Source: Eleginops maclovinus
Lineage: Eukaryota; Chordata; Actinopteri; Perciformes; Eleginopidae
Assembly (NCBI RefSeq): GCF_036324505.1
Contig: NC_086356.1
Location: 9,858,744 to 9,922,743, forward strand
Direction: 5' to 3'
Length of the DNA: 64,000 nt
Shown piece after piece: positions 3,601 through 63,390 of the stretch. The first letter of the stretch is position 1, and every line of letters begins with the position of its first letter. Position numbers and translations under genes: made by a program. The notes under the pieces were generated by a model, which did not search any database, had not been told where the DNA came from, and saw only the letters and a list, made by a program, of their open reading frames with translations.

Positions 3601-4208
3601 AAGCTGAATTTTTCCTCAGTTCCATAAAAGCACAGCTTTCAGGCGTCATGGGAAGTGTGAGAAGCATAAATGCCAAGTCGCAAAGTGTGGCCCACGCACA
3701 TTTAGCTTCGTTTTACAGATGTCCTCAAACATTAAACTCTTTGCAATCAAGATGGACATGCACACACACATACCTTTTGTTCCGCTGATGGGTTTCAGGT
3801 AGAGAGCCAGCTCTTCCACGAACACCTTGCACGCCTCATAGTTCTCGACTTCTGCTGCACTGCTCAGGCTCACCGGCTGCACATCTGGGACCTAAGAGAC
3901 ACACATCATGAACACATTAAAGACACAAAACCACACAAAGTTTTGACACAACATGCCTTCCTTTTTTTTTGACTCACCTGAGCTCCAACCAGCTGCAGCA
4001 GGGCACAGTTGACCGGCAGCAGGTCGATGTCGGTGCTGATGGGTGTCTGGTCGAAGGGGCAGGCCTTGCGGTGGAGTTTGTGTAGGCAGGTCTTACACAC
4101 CGTGTGGGAGCAGCCCAGGCTGATGGGCTGGTGGCCGCTGCTGTCAAACTCATTGTAGCAGATGGGACAGGACAGGAACTCCGTCCACTGGGCCGCCTGC
4201 ACTGGCAT
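660..4208 (-). CDS. rc3h2: Roquin-2 (RC3H2), N-terminal part, partial
   Basis: Roquin proteins bind stem-loop constitutive decay elements in 3'UTRs and promote mRNA decay in cytoplasmic granules; the RING is an E3 ligase module. Coding exons on the minus strand are 4208-3978, 3891-3774, 3270-3037, 2362-2187, 1164-964 and 792-660. All have AG/GT borders and matching phases (0,1,1,0,0,1) and give 364 residues. The start [11 protein letters not shown] is the family start. The RING follows (C14, C17, then [19 protein letters not shown]). From about residue 130 the ROQ region carries [40 protein letters not shown] and the RNA-contacting TKRDED stretch. Signature choices ([31 protein letters not shown]) match RC3H2 rather than RC3H1. 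The gene continues past the left edge. Adjacency to a ZBTB26/6 gene agrees with human 9q33. Confidence 0.95.
1338..1430 (-). ncRNA. Box C/D snoRNA in rc3h2 intron (SNORD90-like), copy 1
   Basis: Read on the minus strand, the element starts with a stem GGTGTCT (1430-1424), then C box ATGATGA (1422-1416), an 18-nt antisense candidate, D' box CTGA (1397-1394), a C'-like TGATCTGA region, and D box CTGA (1348-1345). It closes with AGACACC (1344-1338), the exact complement of the opening stem. It sits in the intron between coding exons 4 and 5, about 170 nt upstream of the 3' splice site. Human RC3H2 hosts SNORD90, so orthology is likely from location; I have not aligned the sequences. It would be released from the debranched intron. 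Its RNA target is not determined here. Confidence 0.8.
2504..2588 (-). ncRNA. Box C/D snoRNA in rc3h2 intron (SNORD90-like), copy 2
   Basis: This is a second snoRNA in the intron between coding exons 3 and 4. On the minus strand it has stem GTTGTCC (2588-2582), C box GTGATGA (2580-2574), the same 18-nt guide segment as copy 1, D' CTGA (2555-2552), a C'-like TGATAAC, and D box CTGA (2514-2511). The closing stem GGACAAC (2510-2504) is fully complementary to the opening one. The block from C box to D' box matches copy 1 over 28 nt, while the stems and the 3' half differ. That is the pattern of two functional paralogues rather than a recent duplication. Confidence 0.8.
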
Positions 4209-4300
4209 CCTGCCACTACACCACCGAGGGAGGCTCCACCGAGCTCAGGGGGAACACATGTCAACGAGCCCTGACAACAGCTCCCGCTCGCCGACGATGA
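4209..4300 (-). other. rc3h2: rc3h2 5'UTR part of the start-codon exon
   Basis: Upstream of the rc3h2 ATG on the minus strand the exon continues to an acceptor, a pyrimidine-rich run ending in CAG just above 4300. This implies that the first exon is separate and non-coding. The segment is GC-richer than the flanking introns. Confidence 0.65.
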
Positions 4301-10885: not shown

Positions 10886-12302
10886 AGATTAGATTAGATT
10901 CCTTTATTGTCCTTGCACACAAGTACAACGAAATTGACTGGCAATCCCAATGGTGCACTCACACACAACAAACAGCAATCGTGCAAAATATATATATAAG
11001 AAAACAAAACAAAATATACAAAACAAATGGACACACTAACGATACGGCACAATAACTTCTGTCATTAGCAGCAAGATATTGCGCTTCAGGATATTGCACA
11101 TTCCGACTTGCTGTGGCCCTATGTACAGTAGTGCAGTTGGACTATATATATAAGGTGCAGATGAAATTAAGAGTGGAATTCCATCATCAGTGTTGTCAGT
11201 GTCAGTGTCAGTTTTTACAGTGTTCAGTTGTTGTATGGCTCTGGGGTAGAAGCTGTTCTTAAGTCTGTTTGTTCGTGATTTAATGGACCTGAAGCGTCTG
11301 CCAGAGGGCAGCAGGTCGAACAAATGATGTCCAGGGTGGGACGGGTCTTTCAGTATGTTGGCTGCTCTACTGAGGCCGCGAGAGCTGAATAAATCCTCCA
11401 AAGAGGGCAGTGAGCAGCCGATGATCTTCTGTGCGGTATTGATGACCCTCTGAAGGGCTCTCCTGTCTGCTGCTGAGCAGCTGGCATACCATGCAGAGAC
11501 ACAGTACGTTAGCACACTCTCGATGGAGCAGCGGAAGAAGGACACCAGCATCTTCTCCTTCAGGTTGTTTTTCCTGAGTATCCTCAGGAAGTAGAGTCGC
11601 TGTTGTGCCTTCTTGACTACTGCGGTGGTGTTGGTAGTCCAGGAGGGATCTTCAGTGATGTGCATCCCCAGGAACGTGAAAACAGGCACCCTGTCTACAC
11701 AATCCCCGTTGATGTATAGTGGATCGGGGTCTGCACTATTCTTCCGGAATTCTATTATAATTTATTTTGTTTTTGAGGAGTCCAGGTAGAGGTTGTTCTC
11801 TGAACACCACGCTGCCAGTCTTTGGACTTCATCCCTGTAGGCTGTCTCGTCTCCTCCTGAGATAAGTCCAACCACAGTTGTGTCATCCGCAAACTTGATG
11901 ATGGTATTGGTGGGATGGGTGGGGGCACAGTCATGGGTATAAAGGGTGTAGAGAAGGGGGCTCAACACACAGCCCTGGGGGGTGCCGGTACTGAGTGTAA
12001 GGGTGGAGGACAGGTGGGGGCCTAGTCTAACAGTCTGGGGGCGTCTCCGTCGGTAGCACTGCGGTTGGTGGTCTTGTAGTTGGTGATGTGGTGTACACCC
12101 TGCCACACTCGCAGTGGGTCGTTGTTGGTTTTCTCCTGAGGGGGGTGTATGCTGGGGTCAAGAGTATGGATAGGTGATCTGACTGGCCTAAGTGTGGTAG
12201 TGGTGTTGCCCTAAAACCGTTCTTCATGTTTGAATAGACCTTGTCTAATGTGTTTTCCCCCATGGTAACACAGTAGACTCTTTGTTGGTGGTCTGAAGAC
12301 AT
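10886..12302 (-). mobile_element. Degraded L2-like non-LTR retrotransposon (LINE), 3' part
   Basis: On the minus strand, 12302-12130 encodes the end of an endonuclease domain (GFRATPLPHLGQSDHLSI, then TPAYTPLRRK). From about 12060 the frame is reverse transcriptase: STGTPQGCVLSPLLYTLYT, then IIKFADDTTVVG with the FADD active-site block, then WCSENNLYL. After an in-frame stop (TAA, 11764-11762) the same protein resumes with FTFLGMHI and RSTNRL-type C-terminal sequence to 11036. The endonuclease end is joined almost directly to the middle of the reverse transcriptase, so the intervening part is missing. The 3' tail at 10886-10935 holds a GATTA-type repeat next to CCTTTATTGTCC, as in fish L2 tails. 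The copy is 5'-truncated, internally deleted and inactive. Assignment to L2 rather than a neighbouring clade is by resemblance. Confidence 0.85.
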
Positions 12303-15080
12303 GGTGGGGGATGATACAGTATCTGTGCCCTGGGGCCCACTGCCTCATAATTTGTTCCTGGATATCAGTAATGTGATAATGCGTGTGTAATTTTCTATAT
12401 GATACATATTTGCAGGCTATATATGCACTACACTATATGGATAGCTGTGTATCTTGCATGTATCAGGCTGTTAGCTTGAAAAAGTTAGTTGGTGAAATTT
12501 GAGCAGGCTGTCTCCGTGGTAACAAGTGGTGCATTTGGCACTGCAGGAAGTCAAACTCAGTTACATAATGAGTCTGGATTACTGTAAATTAAACGGTGGT
12601 ATTTTATTAGACTGCTTTATTTATATGCAACTTATGACCTTCAGTGAGCTGTTTGCACTGAGGGGTAAACAAAGTGAGCCATCAGTGCAATTAAGAGTTA
12701 GATCAGGAGGACAGAATACTTTTATATAATCCTGCAGCACACATGAATGTTTAAAACCTTGTGTTTAATTATACAATATTTAAAGTTATACAGTACAGAA
12801 GCTTTGAGGGGCCTGGTTATAATACAATAGAGACACTGTTCAATACAGAATTAGAACAATTGCTGTCTTTTTGTCAGTGTGTCAGATGACAAACGGAAAT
12901 AACTATTGGGACAAGTGGACAGCTGCAAGCAGTAACATTGAAGTGTTCATTGAAAATAAGCCTTGATTTTGACAGTGTTTTCCAAATTCCCCCCTAACCA
13001 CATGCATTTAGTGAGTGATGAGGTTATTTTTCAGCAAAGTAAACAAAACCTTATTAGTCAATGATTACACCCTGTCATTTCCATTATACACGTAATATAA
13101 TAGCTGTGAACACACCGACTACTATAGCAGCTCTGATCTGGATGTGTTACACTCTTACAACCCATATAGCTCTACTATTGGCTTATATTTAACCACATAA
13201 TGACATATTGTTAATAACCGTCTTGTCCATCTGGTTCGGACTGAAAAATCGTTTGGATGGATTATCATGAACGTTTTGGCAGATATTCAAGCTCTCAAAA
13301 TAATTTGCCCTATCTTTCTGTTATTGCCTCCAGCAGTTTGACATTTGTGATTTTTAGTGAAAACTTGACTGCAGTTGAATGAAATGCCCATCAAAGGGGC
13401 CCCAAGAAGATATTGTAATGTAGTTAGAAAGCAGTGCAATATTTATATCTATATGATTATGACCAAATATATGCCAAATGGTTTGCTTCTGTAGTACAAG
13501 ATTTTAGATTTAATATCTTAGATGGTTAACTATCTCACTATTAATAAGGATTATGTGTGCTATTCAGCTTCTGAAAAGTAAAAAAAAGTGTTGCTGAAAT
13601 GTTGTAAGCTTTAAAAATGTCAGGGTAAATAGACATGCATACAGTATATACTTAATCGTTTTAATTTTAAGATGAAACAAAATGGTTCTTTTCAATATCC
13701 TTACACCTTTAATCGTTCTTTTCCTCGCTGTCTCTGTATCTATCACTGCTATTTTATACCTCTCTCACTCATTCATAATGGAGGTGCTCCAAATTCCACA
13801 GTGACTGTGTGTGCATGGACCATGTCAGATTAAGTACTTTGTCTGGTTGATTCAACTTTGATGACATTGACTCACATAAAAAATGGTAAATGTCTACATT
13901 TGAGAAAGTTGGATGACTGTAGTTTGCTCAAAACATTACTGTATTTTGTGCAAACTGGAGGAAGCTATATTTTAATGCTAGGGGAAACACATGCTTTGGT
14001 AAATTTGGTCTTTATTTCTGTATTTTCTCTTGCTTAATCACACACACAAAAAGTCACATTACTTTCTGCATTGAATACACCATGTGTTAATCATTTGTCT
14101 ACGCACATACTTACACATCAAGCCAGCGGCGCCTCAGATGCCCTGAGGAAAGGAAACAACTACTGTTCCATTCACTGAGATGGTGCATATCTGGGCCGAT
14201 GGAGAAAGAGGTAGCTGCGAAGGGAAACTATGGAGCGAGACAGGAAACCCTCTCTGCCATGCGGGAGAAACCACTCGCTTAAAATGTAATGCTCAGCGAT
14301 CTGTGATTAATTTCAGTCGGGTCAAATGGAGAACCATTGGCTGTCTGTGAAACCTATAGCCTCAATTTGAAACAGGCTGCATACAGTGTTTATCCTGTCA
14401 GCAAACTGACTGAGTAACAGTCTTTCAAAGGTTTAAATGTTTTTAATTTATTTCATTAAGTGAACCATTGTCTCCAGACTTTACATGCACAAGTGTTCAA
14501 TGTGTAATTACATTTTCAGTCATAATATTATCTCTCCTATTGCTTACATAGTTAATTCATGCTTATCTTCTTGGTAATGCATAATCGTTTTTTGTAGATG
14601 CAACAGAGGAGCACTATGAAGGCAATGGAAAAATCGAACCGTGAATGAGATTGCATTGCTTATTATACATAGCAGATGATTAAGCATAATGAAATTTGTA
14701 GATTACATGCTGAAGTACTTCATTTAATATTTTGTACCGGCAGAGATTAGAATCGCTGTAGAGGGCACATAAGGACCCTCGCTTCTTTTCATCAGCCTGA
14801 TGATAATAATGATTCATTTAATTTGTTACAAAATTAAGAAGCGTCAAACTTGTACTTTAAAGAACATAACTACAATCAAATTTCCTAATAACCAATCTTG
14901 AAAAGACCAAATGTTACATCGCAGTCAGTGGGATTGAACACACTGGTGGAGCAGAGCGAGATCATTTGTACTAAAACTTATATTTAAAGCAAAATCATGC
15001 CTTTTGTAGTTGTAAATATTTTCTTTATATGGAATCAAACCACTATAAAGACAAACATTTGTGCTAAAACTGTTTCTTTT
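12303..15080. other. Non-coding stretch; includes 3'UTR of the ZBTB gene at its right end
   Basis: AT-rich. A minus-strand AATAAA lies at 14453-14448 and is a possible poly(A) signal for the ZBTB gene. No other gene or repeat was recognised. Confidence 0.4.
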
Positions 15081-16620
15081 TCAACAGCCCACAGCCTCCT
15101 CAAGCATGTTTTGCAGGCTACTCTTACCATGGATGTCCTTCAGGTGGCGCCTGAGGCCTAGCTTCTGAGCAAAGTGCACAGCACAGTATCTACACTTGTG
15201 GGGTTTATCCCCTGTGTGCAGATTGAGGTGGTCTTGCAGCGTGGCCCTCTGGGAAAATGTCTCGTGACACAGGGGGCATCGAAACGGCTTGAACCCAGTG
15301 TGAACGTGTGTGTGGCGGGTCAGATTACTCCTCTGGGAGAAGCCTTTCCCACACACCAAACACCAGTACTGTTTATGCTCCTTCAGGTGGACCACGTAGC
15401 TCTCCGGGTGCTGGAAGACTCTGTCACACCTCCTGCACAGGTACGGCCTCTGGATCAGAATGCCGTCTGAATCTTCTGTTAGCTCGTCTTCAGGACCTTG
15501 ACTCTTTGGCAGATGTGCTCCAGAGTCCCTCAGCTCTCCACAAACTTGCAGTTGAGCTGCCATCAAAAGCATTTCCTCCTCTTCTCTTTTCTCTCCCTCT
15601 GCTTCATCTTGGTTTTGGGAAGTTTCAACCAATTCTTCTTTTTTAATATAACTTCCTCCAGACGTGGATGATATATTACTTTGAATCATTGTAGGACTTG
15701 TAACCTGGTGGTCTTGATAGGAGGGCTTGTTTGAGTAAACAGGGATGTATCCGCCTTTCTCCGACTCCAGGGTATTAATACAGCATGTTTCATTTTCAGA
15801 TGAATCTATTTTGGCTCGAACCACCCTTTGCTCTCCGACCTCCATCGGTCTGCCCTCGACTTCTTGGCTGAACTGAGGATTTGACAGATTTACAGGGACC
15901 CATCCTTCCTCTGCAGCATCTCTTTCATCATGATTTTTTTTAAAGCTGTTATTTGGCAAATCACTGTCTGGCAGCAGGATTTCTTTCTCCTCTGTGCGTC
16001 TCTCGAGTTCCAAGAAAGCAAGTGTGGGACTGAGGTACTGGGAGATGGCCTGAGCGCACTTCTCCACCACCTGGCTCATCTGGAGCGCACTGGCAGCAGT
16101 TAGGTAGCTCACCAGCTCTCTCACAGGGACCTAAAATAAGAGAGAATTGATAGAAACCACAGAAACTGTTAAATAAAATGAAGAAAATATCTTCATCTCA
16201 TACTTTCATATCACAAACAATCACACCCACCCTGTTGTAACAAAATGTTTGTTTCTTACTTCTGTTTTGGCACACTGTATTTAATGTGTAGTTCAGTAGA
16301 TTAAATTGCACCTCTAATAACCCGGTGTAGCAGGACAGCAGAAGCCTCTTGCCAACCTCCACACTGGACACCACACCCAAACTTAGCTCTGCCAGGCCTT
16401 CTTGGAGCAGGAATTGGTCACGTAAGAAGTCTGAGGAGGCAGCCAGCACAGCTCTGTGACCGTGGAAGGGGAGAGGCTGGACAGTGGCGCCTTGTGGATG
16501 GCCGAGGAGGAGTGTGATATCACAGAAGCGTTGTTCCTCTCTTAGAGAGTTAATTTTGCTGAGGATCGAGTCACCGTGCGTGGGGAAGCAAAACCGTAGG
16601 GTGTCAGTGGAGCTTGACAT
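15081..16620 (-). CDS. zbtb26: BTB/POZ zinc-finger transcription factor, ZBTB26/ZBTB6 type
   Basis: Two coding exons on the minus strand, 16620-16312 and 16130-15081, join GLLE to VPVRELV (phase 0, GTGCAA donor, TTTTAG acceptor) for 452 residues. ZBTB26 is of similar length. Residues about 10-130 form a BTB/POZ dimerisation domain (REEQRFCDITLLL, FHGHRAVLAASSDFLRDQF, EVGKRLLLSCYTG, YLTAASALQMSQVVEKC). A long acidic, unstructured middle contains an IKKE sumoylation consensus. Four C2H2 fingers follow (YLCRRC, YWCLVC, FRCPLC, HKCRYC), the last ending HGKSS near the C-terminus. The finger block LQDHLNLHTGDKPHKC resembles ZBTB26 more than ZBTB6, whereas SCYTGLLEV is closer to ZBTB6. Both human genes neighbour RC3H2, so the exact orthologue is uncertain. 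It is expected to act as a nuclear DNA-binding repressor. A likely acceptor at 16628-16627 implies an upstream non-coding exon. Confidence 0.88.
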
Positions 16621-25642: not shown

Positions 25643-40865
<15,223 letters not shown>

Positions 40866-43025: not shown

Positions 43026-44281
43026 TCAGCACAAGCGTCCGATATCGTTCTTGGTGCAGCCCTGGCTGCAGCACTTCCCAGCCACACCCAGAGAAAAGTT
43101 CCTCTTCTTCTTGCTCGCCATGGGCCAGTCCCCGGCGGCTCGGTTCCCGTCTTGCTCACCTAAAACAGTGAATGGCTGAGATTGAGGGGCAAAGTCGCTC
43201 AGAAGCGGCTGCTGCCTGTCTCCTCGGGCCGCAAACAGAGCCAGGAGGTCCGCCAAGGAGGAAGAGGAGCTAATAAGGAGCGGAGAAGGACTGTCTGCTG
43301 AAAGCTCTGTGCCAGGCTGCCAGTTTGGCTGGTTGTTCCCCTCTGTCACATCACTGAGGGAACTCCACTGGAAGGGATCTGGAGAATGAGAGAGGGTTGA
43401 TAAATATTGGCAGGAATGAAATATAAAAGATGGAAGAAGATCTCTGTGTTTCATTGATATATTGTCTTTTCTCTAATGCCAGTTTATTTTTATTTATATT
43501 TCTTCTTTGAGATGTCTATAGTTTAAAATGGTTTACTTCTTCTTTTTATTTCCCAGTTTGGGATTAATAAAGTAATTGTTATCGTATCTTATTATCTTAC
43601 TTAAAAACTAATTCACAGGTTAAAATTGTAAGAAAATTGACATTTTGAAGAACTAACGACAAAGGAATTATGGCTATACTCGCTTAAAGGATTGGTCAAA
43701 TCAACATAAACATGAGCTGACCATGGTGCTGAAATGGAGCTCTATATATCGGAGCAGCCTAACCTGTTGATGTATATTACATTTATTACCATGTGAGTGC
43801 TACAAATCAAAGTAGGAAGAAAACATTACAGTTCGTCGCACCCTTTCTTATTCTTCTTCTTAAACATCTTGAGCCGTAATGACGCATCGATGTCTTACAT
43901 TATAACTATTGTTCCAACACTATACACCTATACTGTATCTTTAAAGAGAAGTTTCAACATGAGGTTTAGGGAATATTTCACAAAAGTCTTTGAAACAGGT
44001 CTGTAATCACATTTTTAAACTACTGTTTTAAGATAAACACTTGTCCAATTAGTGAGCACGAATGAAACAGCCGCATGTTGCTCACCTGTGTCCCCGTCTA
44101 AGGATCGTTTCCAGCGGGAGCCACCGCAGGTGAAGATGACCGCTCTGATGAACTCTCTCCCGCACAGTTTCACCCCGTAGTCCTTTGGCAGCAGCAGCGT
44201 GCTCATCATGTCCGCCTTCACACAGTTGCAGACGCCACCGACACACACCACGGCCAGGGCAAGAGTCAATCTCCAGAGCAT
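43026..44281 (-). CDS. rln: Relaxin-family prohormone (teleost rln), RLN3-like B chain
   Basis: Secreted two-chain peptide hormone precursor of 182 residues. Exons are 44281-44086 and 43378-43026 (minus), phase 1, the classic relaxin gene structure with one intron in the C-peptide region. A signal peptide is predicted in residues 1-23 (MLWRLTLALAVVCVGGVC). The B chain carries the receptor-binding RxxxRxxI motif as R42, R46, I49 with cysteines C40 and C52, ending W57 before the K58-R59 cleavage site. The C-peptide is about 95 residues. KKKR (155-158) precedes a 24-residue A chain with CC(168-169), C173 and C182. Its B chain is nearly that of relaxin-3, but the position between jak2 and plgrkt matches the mammalian RLN1/RLN2/INSL4/INSL6 cluster, so I call it rln. 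The alternative is an rln3 paralogue. Confidence 0.93.
43558..43606 (+). repeat. Possible 3' tail of a fish LINE/SINE
   Basis: GGGATTAATAAAGTA followed by an AT-rich, short-period tail resembles 3' ends of fish non-LTR elements. It lies in the rln intron. No coding remnant is attached, so the call is weak. Confidence 0.3.
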
Positions 44282-46252
44282 TTTCACTTACAACTAACAA
44301 GAGCAGGCTGCACAAGACGGTCAAGCAGAGCTCCACCTCAGATCTGATCAGTGTTGCAGATCCTGCCGGCTTCGGTTTGGGGAGTTGTGTAGCAGCCGAA
44401 TGCTCAAGTTGTACAGGATGCTTCTGTTGGCTGTCTTGTGTTGCAGAGCTTTGGTTTCCCTCTTTTTGTTCTCTCTGGAAACCTCCTCACTGGTTCACTC
44501 GTCAACCCCAGCGTTAAACCCCAACCCCTCTCCCTCCCTCCCTCACACACACGTCATTTAGATTGATGACAATGACGTACTTGGGAGTAATTTCTTTATT
44601 GTAATAACATTAGTGCAATATTCTTTTGTAGTGTGAGTGTGCTCATTTCTCAAACGGAAGTTGCAGTTATGATTTTTGACGCAAACAAATCAAAGGCATG
44701 TTGGATGTCTTGTGCACTTCACTGGGAAGGATTCGATGCGATTCAGGCTTCTTGAACACCATGTCCGTATTCATTGGTTTTGATTATTGGTTGAATTAGA
44801 ACCATGTCACAAAATATGATTGTAAAAGAGAAAGTCATGGCAATATTTATTTGTATTCGATTACCAAAAATAGTTTCCATGATCCAAACATGATTATGGC
44901 AAATACACAACTCATAAATACCTACACCTGTAATATCTGACATGGACTGAATACAGCTGAGATCATAACAATAAAAGTTACAGGTGCAACAATGTGGACT
45001 GAAGGTGTGGTTTAAAGCTTCTTCAAATTCCAAACATTCTAGTGATAGTTTGAAGTAATAACAATCTTTATGTCTGCAGTGAGGATTATTCTTTAGAACA
45101 TTTTGATCACTTTGTAGTTGCTCTGATTCTCCGGTCCTGGCAAATTAATGAATCAACCAAATGTTATTTCTATAGCTCAACATAACACATGTACATAAGG
45201 GGCTTTAACATTTTTGACAGCATACATACAACACAACCTGTCCTTAATCGCTGGCACAAAATGGACAAAAAATGGCCACAGCTAACAGCTGTTGTTAGCA
45301 AGTGTACCTCTCGGGCATAAAAAACCCAAAAGTTAAGCACCTAACACGAGCAGACAAAGAACTGGTGAACCAAAGCAGGCCTCGCAAATGTTGATACTGC
45401 ATTTCTGTGTCTCGGGGCCAAAACCCAAACACCAAGAGACTGTTTTGTCGTTTTGCATTAGCCCTGACCTTGATATAGCGGTTAGGTTACAGTGAGTGTG
45501 TTTAGAAGTCTTTCTGCCCTCTAGTGGTCAAGAATAACGTAATGTCGCTTTAATTTATGATACAATAAACTAAGCATAAGCACAACATATAAAGATCTTT
45601 TCCAAGTGCAAATTGTGTACAACAGACCGAGGCTAAGCTGCTCTTTAGGTGTTTTTAGAATGGAAAATGGACGAAACAAAGGCAACCAAGACCAGCATGC
45701 TAACCGACTTTCCCATAATGCAATTTTTACAGGACAAAGAGCTGGGGCAGCTGGTTGAAAATATTTTGGGGAATTGGACAAAATAAACGTGTGAAAACTA
45801 AAAAGCATTTCATCTTTGAACAATAATACTAAACATTTGTATGTGTCTTTGAAAGGTTCAATTGGCAGGAGCTTTCCAAAGTTACAGCCTGATTGACTTA
45901 ACAATCTTTGTTAACATGGTTGAGTATTTATTTTTCAACACTAACTGGCAATATTATTTATGGTTCGATGCTTTAATTGATGCAAATAATAATTTAACAG
46001 ATGTATTCCATGATATGCCGCATACTCACAGTGTAATACTACCTAAAGTATTGTGTTTGGCTTCAGTATTTGGCAACTCATGCAAAACAACATCATTTTT
46101 AATAGTGATTAGTATTGAAACAAATTTGACTCAAGGTCCATGATATAGAATTAGTGCAAACCATAGACTCAATAATGTCAAAGCAGCATAAAGCACAATG
46201 GGTGAATGCATCGGCTGGACGGGGATGGTTTGTCTGAAAGATAACCAACACG
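44282..46252. other. rln upstream region and intergenic stretch to plgrkt
   Basis: No clear TATA box or coding frame was recognised. A minus-strand AATAAA at 45932-45927, about 320 bp beyond the plgrkt stop codon, is a candidate plgrkt poly(A) signal. Confidence 0.4.
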
Positions 46253-57148: not shown

Positions 57149-57297
57149 TTCGAATGAAAAATGCGGTGGGTGTGTTTTCGAGAGGTGGGATTTCCCTCTT
57201 GCCTTCATATGAGCAGCAGCATCAGTGCAGACACGGATCAGCGTAAAGGCAGAAGGGAGCGCTTAGGATACCACCAGCATTATCAGACATCCTGCAG
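57149..57297 (+). promoter_or_regulatory. cd274: Candidate promoter and non-coding exon 1 of the cd274-like gene
   Basis: A donor CTGCAG|GTAAGA at 57297/57298 defines a likely 5'UTR exon, since the start-codon exon at 58236 has its own acceptor (TTCCTTAG, ending at 58229). Just upstream are a perfect NF-kappa-B site GGGATTTCCC (57187-57196) and TTCGAATGAA (57149-57158), a TTC-N4-GAA palindrome of the STAT6 type. Inducible PD-L1 transcription through NF-kappa-B and STATs is known in mammals; occupancy here is inference. Confidence 0.5.
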
Positions 57298-57359
57298 GTA
57301 AGAAAATATTATTGACCTACAGCTACAACAGATAAACAGTAGTCGGGGGTTGCAGAACT

Positions 57360-58235: not shown

Positions 58236-61200
58236 ATGGATTGGGCCGTTATTTTGGTTCTGCATGTCATGTTTCAACCTTCCCTCTCAGGTGTGTAGTA
58301 AAAAGTGTATGAATAAACAAGAGCACACACAGGATGAAATAGCATTTACATTAAACAGTTCAAGTCAATGTTGTATATTGCTTCAGCGCTGTTTAACTGA
58401 TTGAGGAAGTCTGACTTTATTATGTATTATTTCCTTGCAGTGTTGTTCACTGTTGAGGCAGAGCGAACCATGTACGAGTCAAAGTTTGGAGAAGATGTTG
58501 TGATGGGCTGCAGGTTTCAGCCTAAACTATCAAACCATCAGGCTGCCCTGCAGGTGATGTGGCAGTGGTTCACCTCCACCTTGATTCGTGAAGTGTACCA
58601 TTTGGATGACTGGAAACAGAACGTTGCAACCCAGGATCCTGATTACCTTGGACGGGTGGTGCTTCTCACTGAGGAGCTGCATAAAGGCTGGGCCAAACTA
58701 AAGGTGAATAATGGGAGTGACTTTCTAGATACATAATAGAATCTGGGCAGGCAAGGTTATTTCGAGTTAAATTTCCACTGAATAAGGCAATTCCTATTGG
58801 GAATTATTGATGTGAGGCTCAAATTCCCAGACAGGTCAGATAATCCCTGCTTATATATCCCTGTCAAGAAGGCACAGATGATACCTTGTATTATAAAAAG
58901 AGAAAGGGGAATTTTGCAAAAGATTTTGGTTCATTGGAAGCTTTAGTTCACGAGGGAATAGTGTGTTTCATGGACATAAACACATCTATTCTTTCTCATC
59001 TTGTCCCTTTTCAGATCTCCAGACTCAGGATCAATGACTCTGGGACATACCAGTGTTTGGTGCAAACAGGAGAAGGAGCTGATTATAAAACAACAACTTT
59101 GTCCGTTGTTGGTAAGTCTGACAGTTTTGCTTTTTTCATTGCAAAATCGTAATGGGCTTTGTTCTGGGAAGAGTCATGCTTGTTGGGAATTTCCTGGGGG
59201 TCATTTCTGAGCACAGTGCAACTCACTGAAAATGGAACTCAGCAGAACATTACTCAATTCTGTAGAGAATGATTTTGGCTCAATTTCTTTTGACAAGATC
59301 TTTCCCTTATCATGTAATCCTTTTTGATCACACTGTTAAGACTATGTCCTTTCTATCTGATTCTTCCCTAGCACCTTATAAATCAGTGACTAAACACATT
59401 GAGAAGGCTGCAGGGGGGGATGACATGCTGCTTACTTGTCTGTCTGAGGGATACCCGGAGTCTCCTGTTATGTGGCAAAATGGACAACATCAGACACTCA
59501 GTTCGAATACCACCTCCGTGACAACTCCAGAGCAACTTGTCCAAGTCACCAGTCGGATACGTGTTAGATCATCGGCCAAAGACAGCTACAAGTGTATCTT
59601 TACAAAAGATGGCTCCTCCGCAACATTTCAAATTCCAGGTACATTTTTGTTTCCTGTTAAATGGTTTCCTATCACACAGGACTTTATGAACTGGATGGAG
59701 AGAATATGAAAGCACACAGGATTTTTATAGGATGACTCAGCAAAGTGATCTTCCTGGCATGTTTCCTCCCTCATTTCCTGTCAGCTGGTCTGCCGCCAAA
59801 CACTTTTCACAAAAAGATAAAGAATCAAATGAGAAGCAAGCAAACGGATAATGTGTACAATTGTTGGATTTAACTAAGTATATTGACTCAACTCCACTCC
59901 AAGTCTTGAATATTCTCATCTAAAAACAGAAAGTATAATATCGTCATGTGTGTACCTATCGTCGCCTACTGCTGTTTCCTGTTGTGTTCAGTCTCTGTTG
60001 ATCTAGTTGTTGACACATCAGATGTGATGGCAAAAGAAATTGTTTCCCCTGCATTTCCACGGAAGATGTGGATGTCTGGGTTCGAGAATCGATTCAGATT
60101 TATTGTAGGAGTTTTGTTACAAAAGCTGTGTGGAATTTAGTAGCTTGTCTGTGCATGTGTTCCCATGCTTCTGTCTATATGTGGGCAACTGTTTATTGCC
60201 TCTTTTTAATGCTTGAACTTGATCAACTAAAAATAAGAATATGTGTATAAGGGGTTTTTCTTATTGCTAAAATAAAGAAAAAAGGTCAGTGAATATACCT
60301 ACACAAAGATGAAGAGAAATAGGAGATCAGGCCAAATCATCACAAAATGAGTATGAAAGCATAAGTATCTCTAATTGCTGCAAATTCTTTCGACATTGTT
60401 TTCCACAAAGAGGAAGTGTGCAAATCTTTTTCTTCTTTGGTATATTTGGTTATTTCCATGGTGGTCAAACATTTTGTAATCGTGGGAATAACAATCAAAT
60501 ATAAACACTTGCCACGGCACTGCTGAATTTGAAGTTTTTTTCCCTGCAATTAACCCTCACCATTCTTCACTCTTGCACAGATGAAATACCTGTTCCTCAG
60601 AAGAGGAATGACGCTCTCATCGTCGTTCTGAGCATAGGTGTGATAATAGTTGCCCTTATCATTGCAATGCTCTTCTACCGACGACAAAAAGGTAAAGCAG
60701 TCCCTCATTACCGTTACAAAGGGACATCCTTAGAGGGTTAGATTTGTGAGCTGAAAGAATATCTGCTGGGCAGAGGGTGGAAATTCAAGTTTGTGTATTC
60801 TTTATTATTTCCTTATTCAAAGTAAACACACTGGTTTATTTTTCCCTGTTACAACCCATTACATATATCACAAAATACTGCAATGACTTAAGACAGACAA
60901 CATTTCAACGTTAAAGTCAAACTTTATTGTGAAGCCAAAAAAGATGTCTTTAATCTCACCTCAAACTACTTGCAGTATTGCCAAAATCAACGGTCAGCAT
61001 TCATAGTTTATAATTACTAGGTCAAATTTCAAGGGACTTTTAAACTACTGCCAGTAAACAACAATGTCATTGATAACTGGGAAGACAGCACAAACTGTCA
61101 TAAACGCTGAGTCAGTTTCATTTTTGGCACTGAGAAGAGGAAGTATTGTGAAACCTGATAGCTCTTAGATATTAGCTTCAGCTTGGTTACCTTCACCTAG

Positions 61201-63390
61201 AGGGAATTTTGCCAGCTGTTGGTCATGCATGTATTCTGTCACATGACTATTAACTTTGGAAACACCCATGTTGGTGTTAATTGAGTTACAGGGGAATTTG
61301 AGGTCATTTGATAATGTGTGGGTGGTTTTTCAGTCAGGCATGTTTGTAGTATTCCCCCAACCAAACACACACATCATTTACATAATGGACTTATTACACA
61401 TTTCTATATTCATATGAATGTGTAACATGATAAGAACAGACACTTCAGCCTAGGGTCCAAAAAGGTAAAACAGATTTGATGCTATACAACTAAATATTAA
61501 GTTAAGGGTTTTTCATCGAGGATTTTTAAACACAGATATATTATATGTACATATCTACTAAGCTGCATTATTGAAACTACCTTCATACAGTCAGTTAATA
61601 CATTCATACACACCGGTTGGAGCAATACATTAAATGATATGTTCTTCTTCACAGGTTTTAGATTTCATTGCACAAGGAACCTTTCGGTCGACGGTCAAGG
61701 CAAATCTGATTCTGTTGCTGCCTGTGAGTATGAACAGAGCTGAACAAGTTACCAAGTTGCCTTTCCTAGTCATTTAATCATTTTGACCTACCCTAATCCC
61801 ACCAAACAAGCGAGCAAACATAAACTGTGCTTTAACAAGAACAGCTCAAACTCAAAGCACTTCTCATAAGTGAAACACACTTAAAGTTATTAAATAAGAA
61901 ATAGTAAAAGTTGTGAAATGCTCAGTGACTGAAACACAGCTATTCCATAAATGAAAAGAGTAAACAGTGTGTGAAAGCGAATTTTATTACATGGAACAAC
62001 AATATCATGATTGAAGAAAGTTCTGCTTTCATAAGTTGTACATTAGGAATTGTTTTTTGAGATGCATTTTAATTTGCATTAAGGTGAATTTGAGTGGATT
62101 TACACCACAATTGTTGTAGTCCTGCAGAGTGACTTGAAGCAATGATGAATGAATTAACTATTTAATGGATATCGCACTCATCTGAATTAGTGTTTCTAAC
62201 AATGCTGTTCCTTACCATCAGGTATAGCAAAAAATAAAGACAACGAGGAAGAGATAACTATTTTTAATGAAGGTAAGGGGCTCTCGTGTTTCCCTATTTA
62301 GTACAAGAATGAACAAAAACAATTGAAGTTTTGTTCACACTTTTTGCCTTACTTGCAAATGATATTGATATGATCATGATCAGGTCTGTTTCGTTGGCTG
62401 TAGGGTGCATGGAGGAAAATCTGGGGGCATTTCTGAAAAACCATTATTCCAACTTCTCGCTCAGCACCGAGATGACACACCACTGCGAAGCTTTCGCGGT
62501 GGAGGAGCTGCCTCACAGGCTGCAAAACAAGTGAGTCACAAACACATCTTTCCATTCATCACAGAGGATCCTGCCACACTTCTATGATCTTATTTTCAGT
62601 AACACAATTACATTTTCTTTTTATTTCAAAACATAAAAAAAAACGTTTAGTGACCCCCTATTCTTTTTAACTTCAAGCTAGCTAACTTGCAAGGGCAGTT
62701 TATACTCTGACAGAGCAGGCTTAGATAAAAACAGATGGTTCAAGACGCTAAATTACAATAAATTTCACCTTTTGGGACTGCCATGATAGTGGCTAATTGC
62801 ATACATTTCTGAGTCACCAAAGTGGAAGTCCCTGTTGAGGAAATCCAAAATGAGCTTAATGAACATATATAGTAAATGTTTGTTGTTGACGCTAATGTTA
62901 AGGATCTCTTGTTTCTTTCAGTGAGGGCAAGTCTGTGAGTCTTCAAGCTTTACTACCAAAAGCTGGAGAAGTAGTTTTCCTCGAGGGATCCCCAGGAAGC
63001 GGGAAGACAACTGTAGCCCACATCCTGGTTTCTTCTTGGACTGAGGGTCCGACACATGCCCTCTCTAAACGTGTCAATCTCAGCACTGTTCGATTTCTTT
63101 TTACAATTGACTGCAACAGAGTGAAGGGCGACTTCTTTCAGGAAATAAAGATGCAACTTTCTCTCTTGGAAAAGACAGAGGATGAGTTGAGGACTTTGTT
63201 AACCAGTGAGGCTCTGCTGGTGTTGGATGGGTACCGAGAAGGGAACCATTTTTTTGACGAGTCCTTGAGGAAGTTTGTAATGGAAAGAGAAGGATGCAGG
63301 GTGCTGGTCATGTCCTGCCCAAGACACTGTCCAATACTCAATGACACAGTTGTGACAGGACGTACACTGCAGATCCAAAACAAAGTATGA
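58236..63390 (+). CDS. cd274: PD-L1/CD274-like checkpoint ligand with a C-terminal NACHT-type P-loop domain
   Basis: Exons 58236-58290, 58441-58703, 59015-59111, 59372-59638, 60581-60691, 61655-61723, 62222-62272, 62404-62530 and 62922-63390 have AG/GT borders and matched phases (1,0,1,1,1,1,1,2), giving 502 residues. Residues 1-19 are a signal peptide. IgV is about 25-138 (C at VVMGC, NDSGTYQC). IgC is about 140-227 (DMLLTC, SYKC), with sequon NTT. The transmembrane helix is 239-260, then RRQK. The tail (265-347) has an acidic KDNEEEITIFNE patch. Residues 348-502 contain Walker A GSPGSGKTT (369-377), LLVLDGYRE (445-453) and a sensor-1-like VLVMSC (474-479), ending without helical, winged-helix or LRR domains. 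Position next to plgrkt fits CD274, but PD-L2 cannot be excluded. Mammalian PD-L1 has only a short tail. Intron retention after exon 5 would stop after 16 residues, giving a conventional ligand of 280 residues. The ectodomain call is strong; the NACHT fusion rests on splice-phase continuity and needs RNA evidence. Confidence 0.85.

Follow-up and report, generated by a model that had tools for sequence, protein, structure and literature searches.

A PD-L1 orthologue of ray-finned fishes whose conserved tail matches a stand-alone NACHT nucleotide-binding core

PD-L1 is a central checkpoint ligand. A window of 64,000 nucleotides from the fish Eleginops maclovinus (assembly GCF_036324505.1, contig NC_086356.1, positions 9,858,744 to 9,922,743 of the forward strand), the whole stretch of DNA analysed here, raises the question whether such a ligand can share a single gene with a NACHT-type P-loop domain, as an earlier note on this DNA had proposed for positions 58236-63390. 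When joined and translated, the nine exons gave one uninterrupted frame of 502 residues closed by a stop codon, so that the proposed coordinates proved right; every intron is GT-AG and the phases are 1,0,1,1,1,1,1,2, of which the last four, downstream of the transmembrane exon, agree with the 1,1,1,2 claimed. The encoded protein is identical, letter for letter, to database protein P0001 (E. maclovinus PBY51_023433, "hypothetical protein"). The evidence below supports the proposal that a single gene, a conserved PD-L1 orthologue, unites a PD-L1-like ectodomain with a NACHT-type P-loop domain.

What is the front half of this protein? In a sequence match against the PDB, residues 17-267, comprising the ectodomain and the transmembrane segment, aligned with PD-L1 chain 35tl at E 4.5e-33; two CD276 chains rank above that chain, each by summing two aligned stretches. 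The 18 best Foldseek matches of the full-length model (mean predicted local distance difference test score, pLDDT, 79.4; predicted template modeling score, pTM, 0.45) were chains of PD-L1 entries, followed by PD-L2 and butyrophilins. F21 and D129 of the Eleginops protein align with F19 and D122 of the PDB PD-L1 chain, which the text of Kondo et al. (2025; PMC12151841) names as PD-1 contact residues. Among 125 proteins with the same tail, Phe occupies the first of these positions in 115 and Asp the second in 121, with gaps scored as misses. About 20 kb upstream, on the same strand (+), the interval 30124-38536 holds exons that Pfam assigns to FERM, SH2 and kinase domains, and PDB matches identify this gene as JAK2 over JAK3 (E 4e-37 versus 1.5e-22). 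JAK2 and CD274 are linked in mammals also. By sequence, by fold and by the upstream JAK2, the gene is fish PD-L1 (CD274). It shares with tetrapod PD-L1 the IgV and IgC domains, the PD-1 contact positions, the nearby JAK2 and a single transmembrane helix, predicted here after IgC, but whereas the tetrapod tail is short (the entire protein counts 290 amino acids in its full-length PDB chain), about 239 residues follow the helix in Eleginops, with NACHT at their end. The model predicts a type I, single-pass membrane protein whose tail is likely to lie inside the cell.

The tail matches a NACHT-type nucleotide-binding domain by sequence and predicted fold. Pfam scores NACHT in the Eleginops protein at 31.3 bits against a curated cut-off of 26.7, and reports it in 51 of 52 family members at E 1e-3 or better. 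Structure prediction, which the earlier note had suggested as a check, gave a complete five-strand P-loop core of the type seen in NOD-like receptors (NLRs), with a fold resembling NLRC4 and NLRP3; in comparisons limited to solved structures, NLRC4 comes first among NLRs both by profile and by fold. The linker, previously described as a stretch of about 85 residues, resolves in the model into a disordered segment and two helices ahead of the core (Table 1), and L311, L315 and Y319 of the pre-NACHT helices are kept in 90% or more of the 52 members. Within the core, the Walker A lysine Lys375 is retained in 123 of 125 proteins, Gly374 in 122 and Ser/Thr376 in 121, while the Walker B aspartate Asp449 and Cys472 are present in all 125 and Glu453 in 120. 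Nucleotide binding by the tail is predicted.

The likeness to NLRC4 and other NLRs, which covers the NACHT core fold, Walker A and an LDGYxE Walker B, stops at that core: the fish PD-L1 tail is predicted to be membrane-tethered and differs from them in having no CARD, NHD, WHD, HD2 or leucine-rich repeats (LRR). The proteins end 0-16 residues past strand 5 in 124 of 125 cases (86 residues in P0113), so that the NHD/WHD region (ARC) and the LRR are missing, and CARD, PYD, BIR, LRR and SPRY were not found among the 24 Pfam families present in the 52 members at E 0.001. As ARC, LRR and effector domains were not found, we rejected a classification as NLR and regard the tail as a lone nucleotide-binding core. 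The "inflammasome-like" signalling suggested earlier loses its footing for the same reasons, while reverse signalling by the tail is possible.

Could the union be an artefact, through a faulty gene prediction or the chaining of two adjacent genes into one model? The window is genomic sequence only, the gene models of the relatives are partly predictions, and three of the collected proteins (P0024, P0041 and P0086) carry NACHT but no IgV at all. Against this, three protein searches yielded 139 distinct proteins, of which 125 contain the NACHT block, a sample directed at the tail so that 125/139 is not a frequency among fishes; 119 of those 125 have both Ig domains, and both halves are thus present in 119 of the 139. 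Pairwise identities of ectodomain and tail co-vary across 119 proteins (Mantel r 0.92, with 0 of 999 permutations reaching r), indicating that the two were inherited together. Both figures bear out the argument of the earlier note that the fusion is more than chance.

Further evidence came from entries labelled "lgn". Eleven rows with this label only and with the NACHT block were picked by hand, and nine of them hold the complete protein of 495-510 amino acids, on longest contigs of 1602-2223 bases; P0029 and P0113, also "lgn", lack part or most of IgV. The nine are 37-62% identical to the Eleginops tail and hence come from other species. Their contigs, at most 2.2 kb, are too short for introns like those of Eleginops, where the gene spans 5155 bases of genomic sequence, and judged by this length they are most likely spliced transcripts. 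In addition, the text of PMC12151841 independently reports in fish a long, conserved, C-terminal PD-L1 tail encoded by a single exon, in nine of 13 ray-finned species, bichir included and salmonids not. On the presence of both halves, the nine short-contig proteins and the co-variation, we rejected a chained-gene artefact, which we consider extremely improbable; it is very probable that a single mRNA carries the PD-L1 ectodomain and the NACHT tail.

The NACHT-tailed form, represented mostly by proteins of named fish, ranges from osteoglossomorphs and elopomorphs through percomorphs, the taxa with named species being mormyrids, Arapaima, Scleropages, tarpons, eels, bonefish, cyprinids, catfishes, characins and many percomorphs. 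A fusion confined to Eleginops, or a pseudogene, was rejected on account of these NACHT-tailed relatives. If the tail of bichir is the same tail, NACHT-tailed PD-L1 would be as old as the ray-finned fishes. Mean identity among deep pairs (118 proteins) is 0.45 for NACHT, 0.43 for IgV and 0.42 for IgC, compared with 0.29 for the two helices, 0.21 for the transmembrane segment and 0.18 for the linker. P0128 (Lates japonicus, 485 amino acids), whose row is misaligned and which has no NACHT, was not deliberately dropped from the regional identities or from the Mantel test. We also observed one "lgn" entry (P0127, contig of 1688 bases) encoding a PD-L1 of 281 residues that ends near the pre-NACHT helices; it may be a short isoform or come from a lineage shedding the tail.

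How much of this had been described? The earlier note knew of no such description. For the tail itself this does not stand, since a long conserved tail had been reported in PMC12151841 and, as cited there, by Hu et al. (2023); the tail is most likely the same, although its exon is numbered 8 there and is coding exon 9 here. The claim holds for the identity of the tail, as the main text of PMC12151841 contains none of the terms NACHT, P-loop and NTPase. Judged by title and the start of the abstract, no paper on NACHT or a P-loop in fish PD-L1 was among the literature matches listed, and the zebrafish gene name gave no match. A review dealing with the zebrafish PD-L1/BTLA axis (PMC12298638) leaves the tail unmentioned in its zebrafish PD-L1 passages, and term searches met neither PD-L1 nor CD274 in the searched text of a fish NLR review (PMC12436146), nor NACHT in that of a CD28-family paper (PMC11599192). 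NACHT is, however, already among the Pfam labels that the database proteins bear by automatic annotation. The existence of the tail is thus prior art; what is new is its identification as a NACHT nucleotide-binding domain, together with the clustering-switch hypothesis set out below.

The function of the tail is treated as speculative in the text of PMC12151841, whose discussion proposes that hydrophobic patches associate with the membrane, the tail governing PD-L1 stability or trafficking. If the tail is the same, these patches would be the buried beta strands of the predicted P-loop fold, which would explain them without any membrane contact, and we consider this proposal very improbable. 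We tentatively favor another reading, in which the tail is a stand-alone NACHT acting as a nucleotide-dependent self-association module that clusters PD-L1 and tunes T-cell restraint. ATP or another nucleotide at the P-loop would favor contact between nucleotide-binding domains (NBDs), as in the signal transduction ATPases with numerous domains (STAND proteins). With the NBDs tethered to the membrane, such contact would amount to clustering of the ligand, an inside-out control like that by the B30.2 domain of BTN3A1, and clustering at the membrane would set the strength of T-cell restraint; engagement of the ectodomain could in turn cluster the tails from the outside in. For a STAND NBD that lacks ARC, clustering would be the simplest use. 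With neither a WHD to lock ADP nor the second Walker B acid, and in most proteins no sensor-1 Arg either, the tail would bind nucleotide with slow hydrolysis or none and fall short of a full STAND switch.

Several observations weigh against self-association by nucleotide. The absent NHD/WHD (ARC) region is the driver of STAND switching. The double acid D-G-h-D-E after Walker B is a NACHT motif; the motif found here is DGY-R/K/Q/T-E, with Glu453 alone kept and with Arg, Lys, Gln or Thr, not an acid, in 122 of 125 proteins at position +3 of Walker B, while NLRC4 itself has DGYNE at this site. At the sensor-1 position, Arg is found in only 14 of 125 proteins and Cys in 81. The P-loop is degenerate in some proteins that keep the domain: Gly374 is replaced by Asp in Scleropages P0118 and Arapaima P0115, the loop of Paralichthys P0120 ("B7-H1/DC") contains Arg and Met, and Lys375 is Arg in P0068 and P0119. 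By fold, NLRC4 and NLRP3 (12.4) are close enough to count as tied, NOD2 (12.0) is not far below NLRC4, and AAA+ chains score 10-12 in the same comparison. Ig coverage is incomplete in six of 125 proteins (P0024, P0029, P0041, P0068, P0086 and P0113), which are fragments or other gene models. Finally, the block is absent from 14 of 139 proteins (eight salmonid, one cichlid, one pipefish, one Channa fragment, one Lates and two "lgn"), some of which are named isoforms or partial models; the function would thus be dispensable in some fishes, and the eight salmonid entries agree with the lack of a long tail in salmonids in the text of PMC12151841.

Some of these features fit a different role, in which the NACHT core is a docking scaffold, with nucleotide at most structural, that recruits a cytoskeletal or signalling partner for reverse signalling or endocytosis. 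The lack of ARC and of the canonical double acid is in keeping with it, as are the entries whose P-loop has decayed while the fold is retained and the example of AjNLRC4, a sea-cucumber protein whose intracellular NACHT part binds beta-actin with a Kd of 5.87 uM and which dimerises and is internalised upon infection, according to the text of PMC8699970. This precedent, pointing to a role in actin binding or endocytosis, also counts against the clustering reading. Nevertheless, retention of the Walker A Lys in 123/125 and the Walker B Asp in 125/125 goes beyond strict structural need and no partner is known in fish, which leaves the scaffold rather doubtful. AjNLRC4, named NLRC4 by its authors, who in that text knew of no earlier protein combining Ig and NACHT, resembles fish PD-L1 in its extracellular Ig, transmembrane segment and intracellular NACHT and in having neither LRR nor CARD. 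It differs in being a pathogen receptor, not a B7-family ligand, and in having a second transmembrane segment after NACHT; none was met in the model of the Eleginops protein, which has one such helix and ends at residue 502. The two fusions probably arose independently.

The resemblance to NLRC4 suggests a further role, in which the NBD, held at the membrane, would pair in the same cell with a NACHT of NLRC4/NAIP type and dampen or nucleate a cytosolic NLR. NLRC4 heads the NLRs in both the profile and the fold comparison, yet it is the nearest among solved structures only and is near-tied by fold with other NLRs. Moreover, the three protein searches, with 1269, 7998 and 8000 scored candidates, listed not a single NLR at E 0.001, so that no NLR partner or donor was identified, and we regard this pairing as quite improbable.

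A parallel to clustering by nucleotide is BTN3A1, which combines a B7-like ectodomain of similar fold (by Foldseek) with an intracellular domain sensing a small molecule and, in the account of PMC10533412, is driven inside-out by that molecule; it differs in having B30.2 instead of NACHT and in acting on gamma-delta T cells. BTN3A1 and AjNLRC4 illustrate the two directions in which a protein of this kind could work. An unlikely but more far-reaching version of the clustering reading would make ray-finned PD-L1 a nucleotide-gated checkpoint, in which an inflammasome-type NACHT sensor in the presenting cell reads the cytosolic nucleotide or metabolite state and directly sets the clustering of the outer ectodomain and with it the strength of T-cell silencing. 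Such a protein would be a BTN3A1-like inside-out switch joining a checkpoint ligand to an NLR core, one that is not known from tetrapods.

Table 1. Coordinates of the PD-L1 (CD274) gene features in the Eleginops maclovinus window
Feature	Position	Strand	Content
Exon 1, coding part	58236..58290	+	Start codon and signal peptide; predicted helix 3-12
Exon 2	58441..58703	+	First part of IgV; Pfam V-set 35-137
Exon 3	59015..59111	+	Remainder of IgV; I-set 101-137; carries D129
Exon 4	59372..59638	+	IgC; Ig_3 143-214, C2-set_3 154-216
Exon 5	60581..60691	+	Stalk, then transmembrane helix at residues 238-263 (60610-60687); helix in model
Exon 6	61655..61723	+	Cytoplasmic linker, predicted disordered; pLDDT under 50 across 264-309
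Exon 7	62222..62272	+	Cytoplasmic linker, predicted disordered
Exon 8	62404..62530	+	Two predicted helices, 304-320 and 326-343, ahead of NACHT core
Exon 9	62922..63390	+	Whole NACHT P-loop core with five strands; stop codon
Walker A GSPGSGKT	62986..63009	+	Residues 369-376; checked by translation
Walker B LLVLDGYRE	63214..63240	+	Residues 445-453; checked by translation
Polyadenylation signal AATAAA	63550..63555	+	160 bases past the stop codon

Upstream of coding exon 1, a stretch picked out by eye at 57190-57299 (+) may be a first exon without coding sequence; a GTAAG donor closes it. Elsewhere in the window, open frames at 11036-12344 (-) have the look of a remnant of a non-LTR retrotransposon reverse transcriptase, within which Pfam matches ALKBH8_N at 11036-11761, and an open frame at 27645-27986 (+) resembles a fragment of a Tc1-type transposase. 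Another, at 44015-44287 (-), has a signal-peptide-like start and a relaxin-like appearance; Pfam gave no match for it. Coding stretches for C2H2 zinc-finger and RING-finger proteins were assigned by Pfam at 15081-16130 (-) and 3906-4244 (-).

In these fish, the tail of PD-L1 is an autonomous predicted nucleotide-binding domain that is conserved as strongly as the ectodomain. A conserved tail that had lacked an explanation becomes testable through one lysine and one aspartate. With lineages that have the tail, lineages that do not and lineages with degenerate P-loops, fish offer a natural experiment on the PD-L1 tail, in which Arapaima, Scleropages and Paralichthys (P0115, P0118 and P0120) are a natural test of the importance of nucleotide binding. 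The tail also warns against taking fish PD-L1 models as plain substitutes for mammalian PD-L1.

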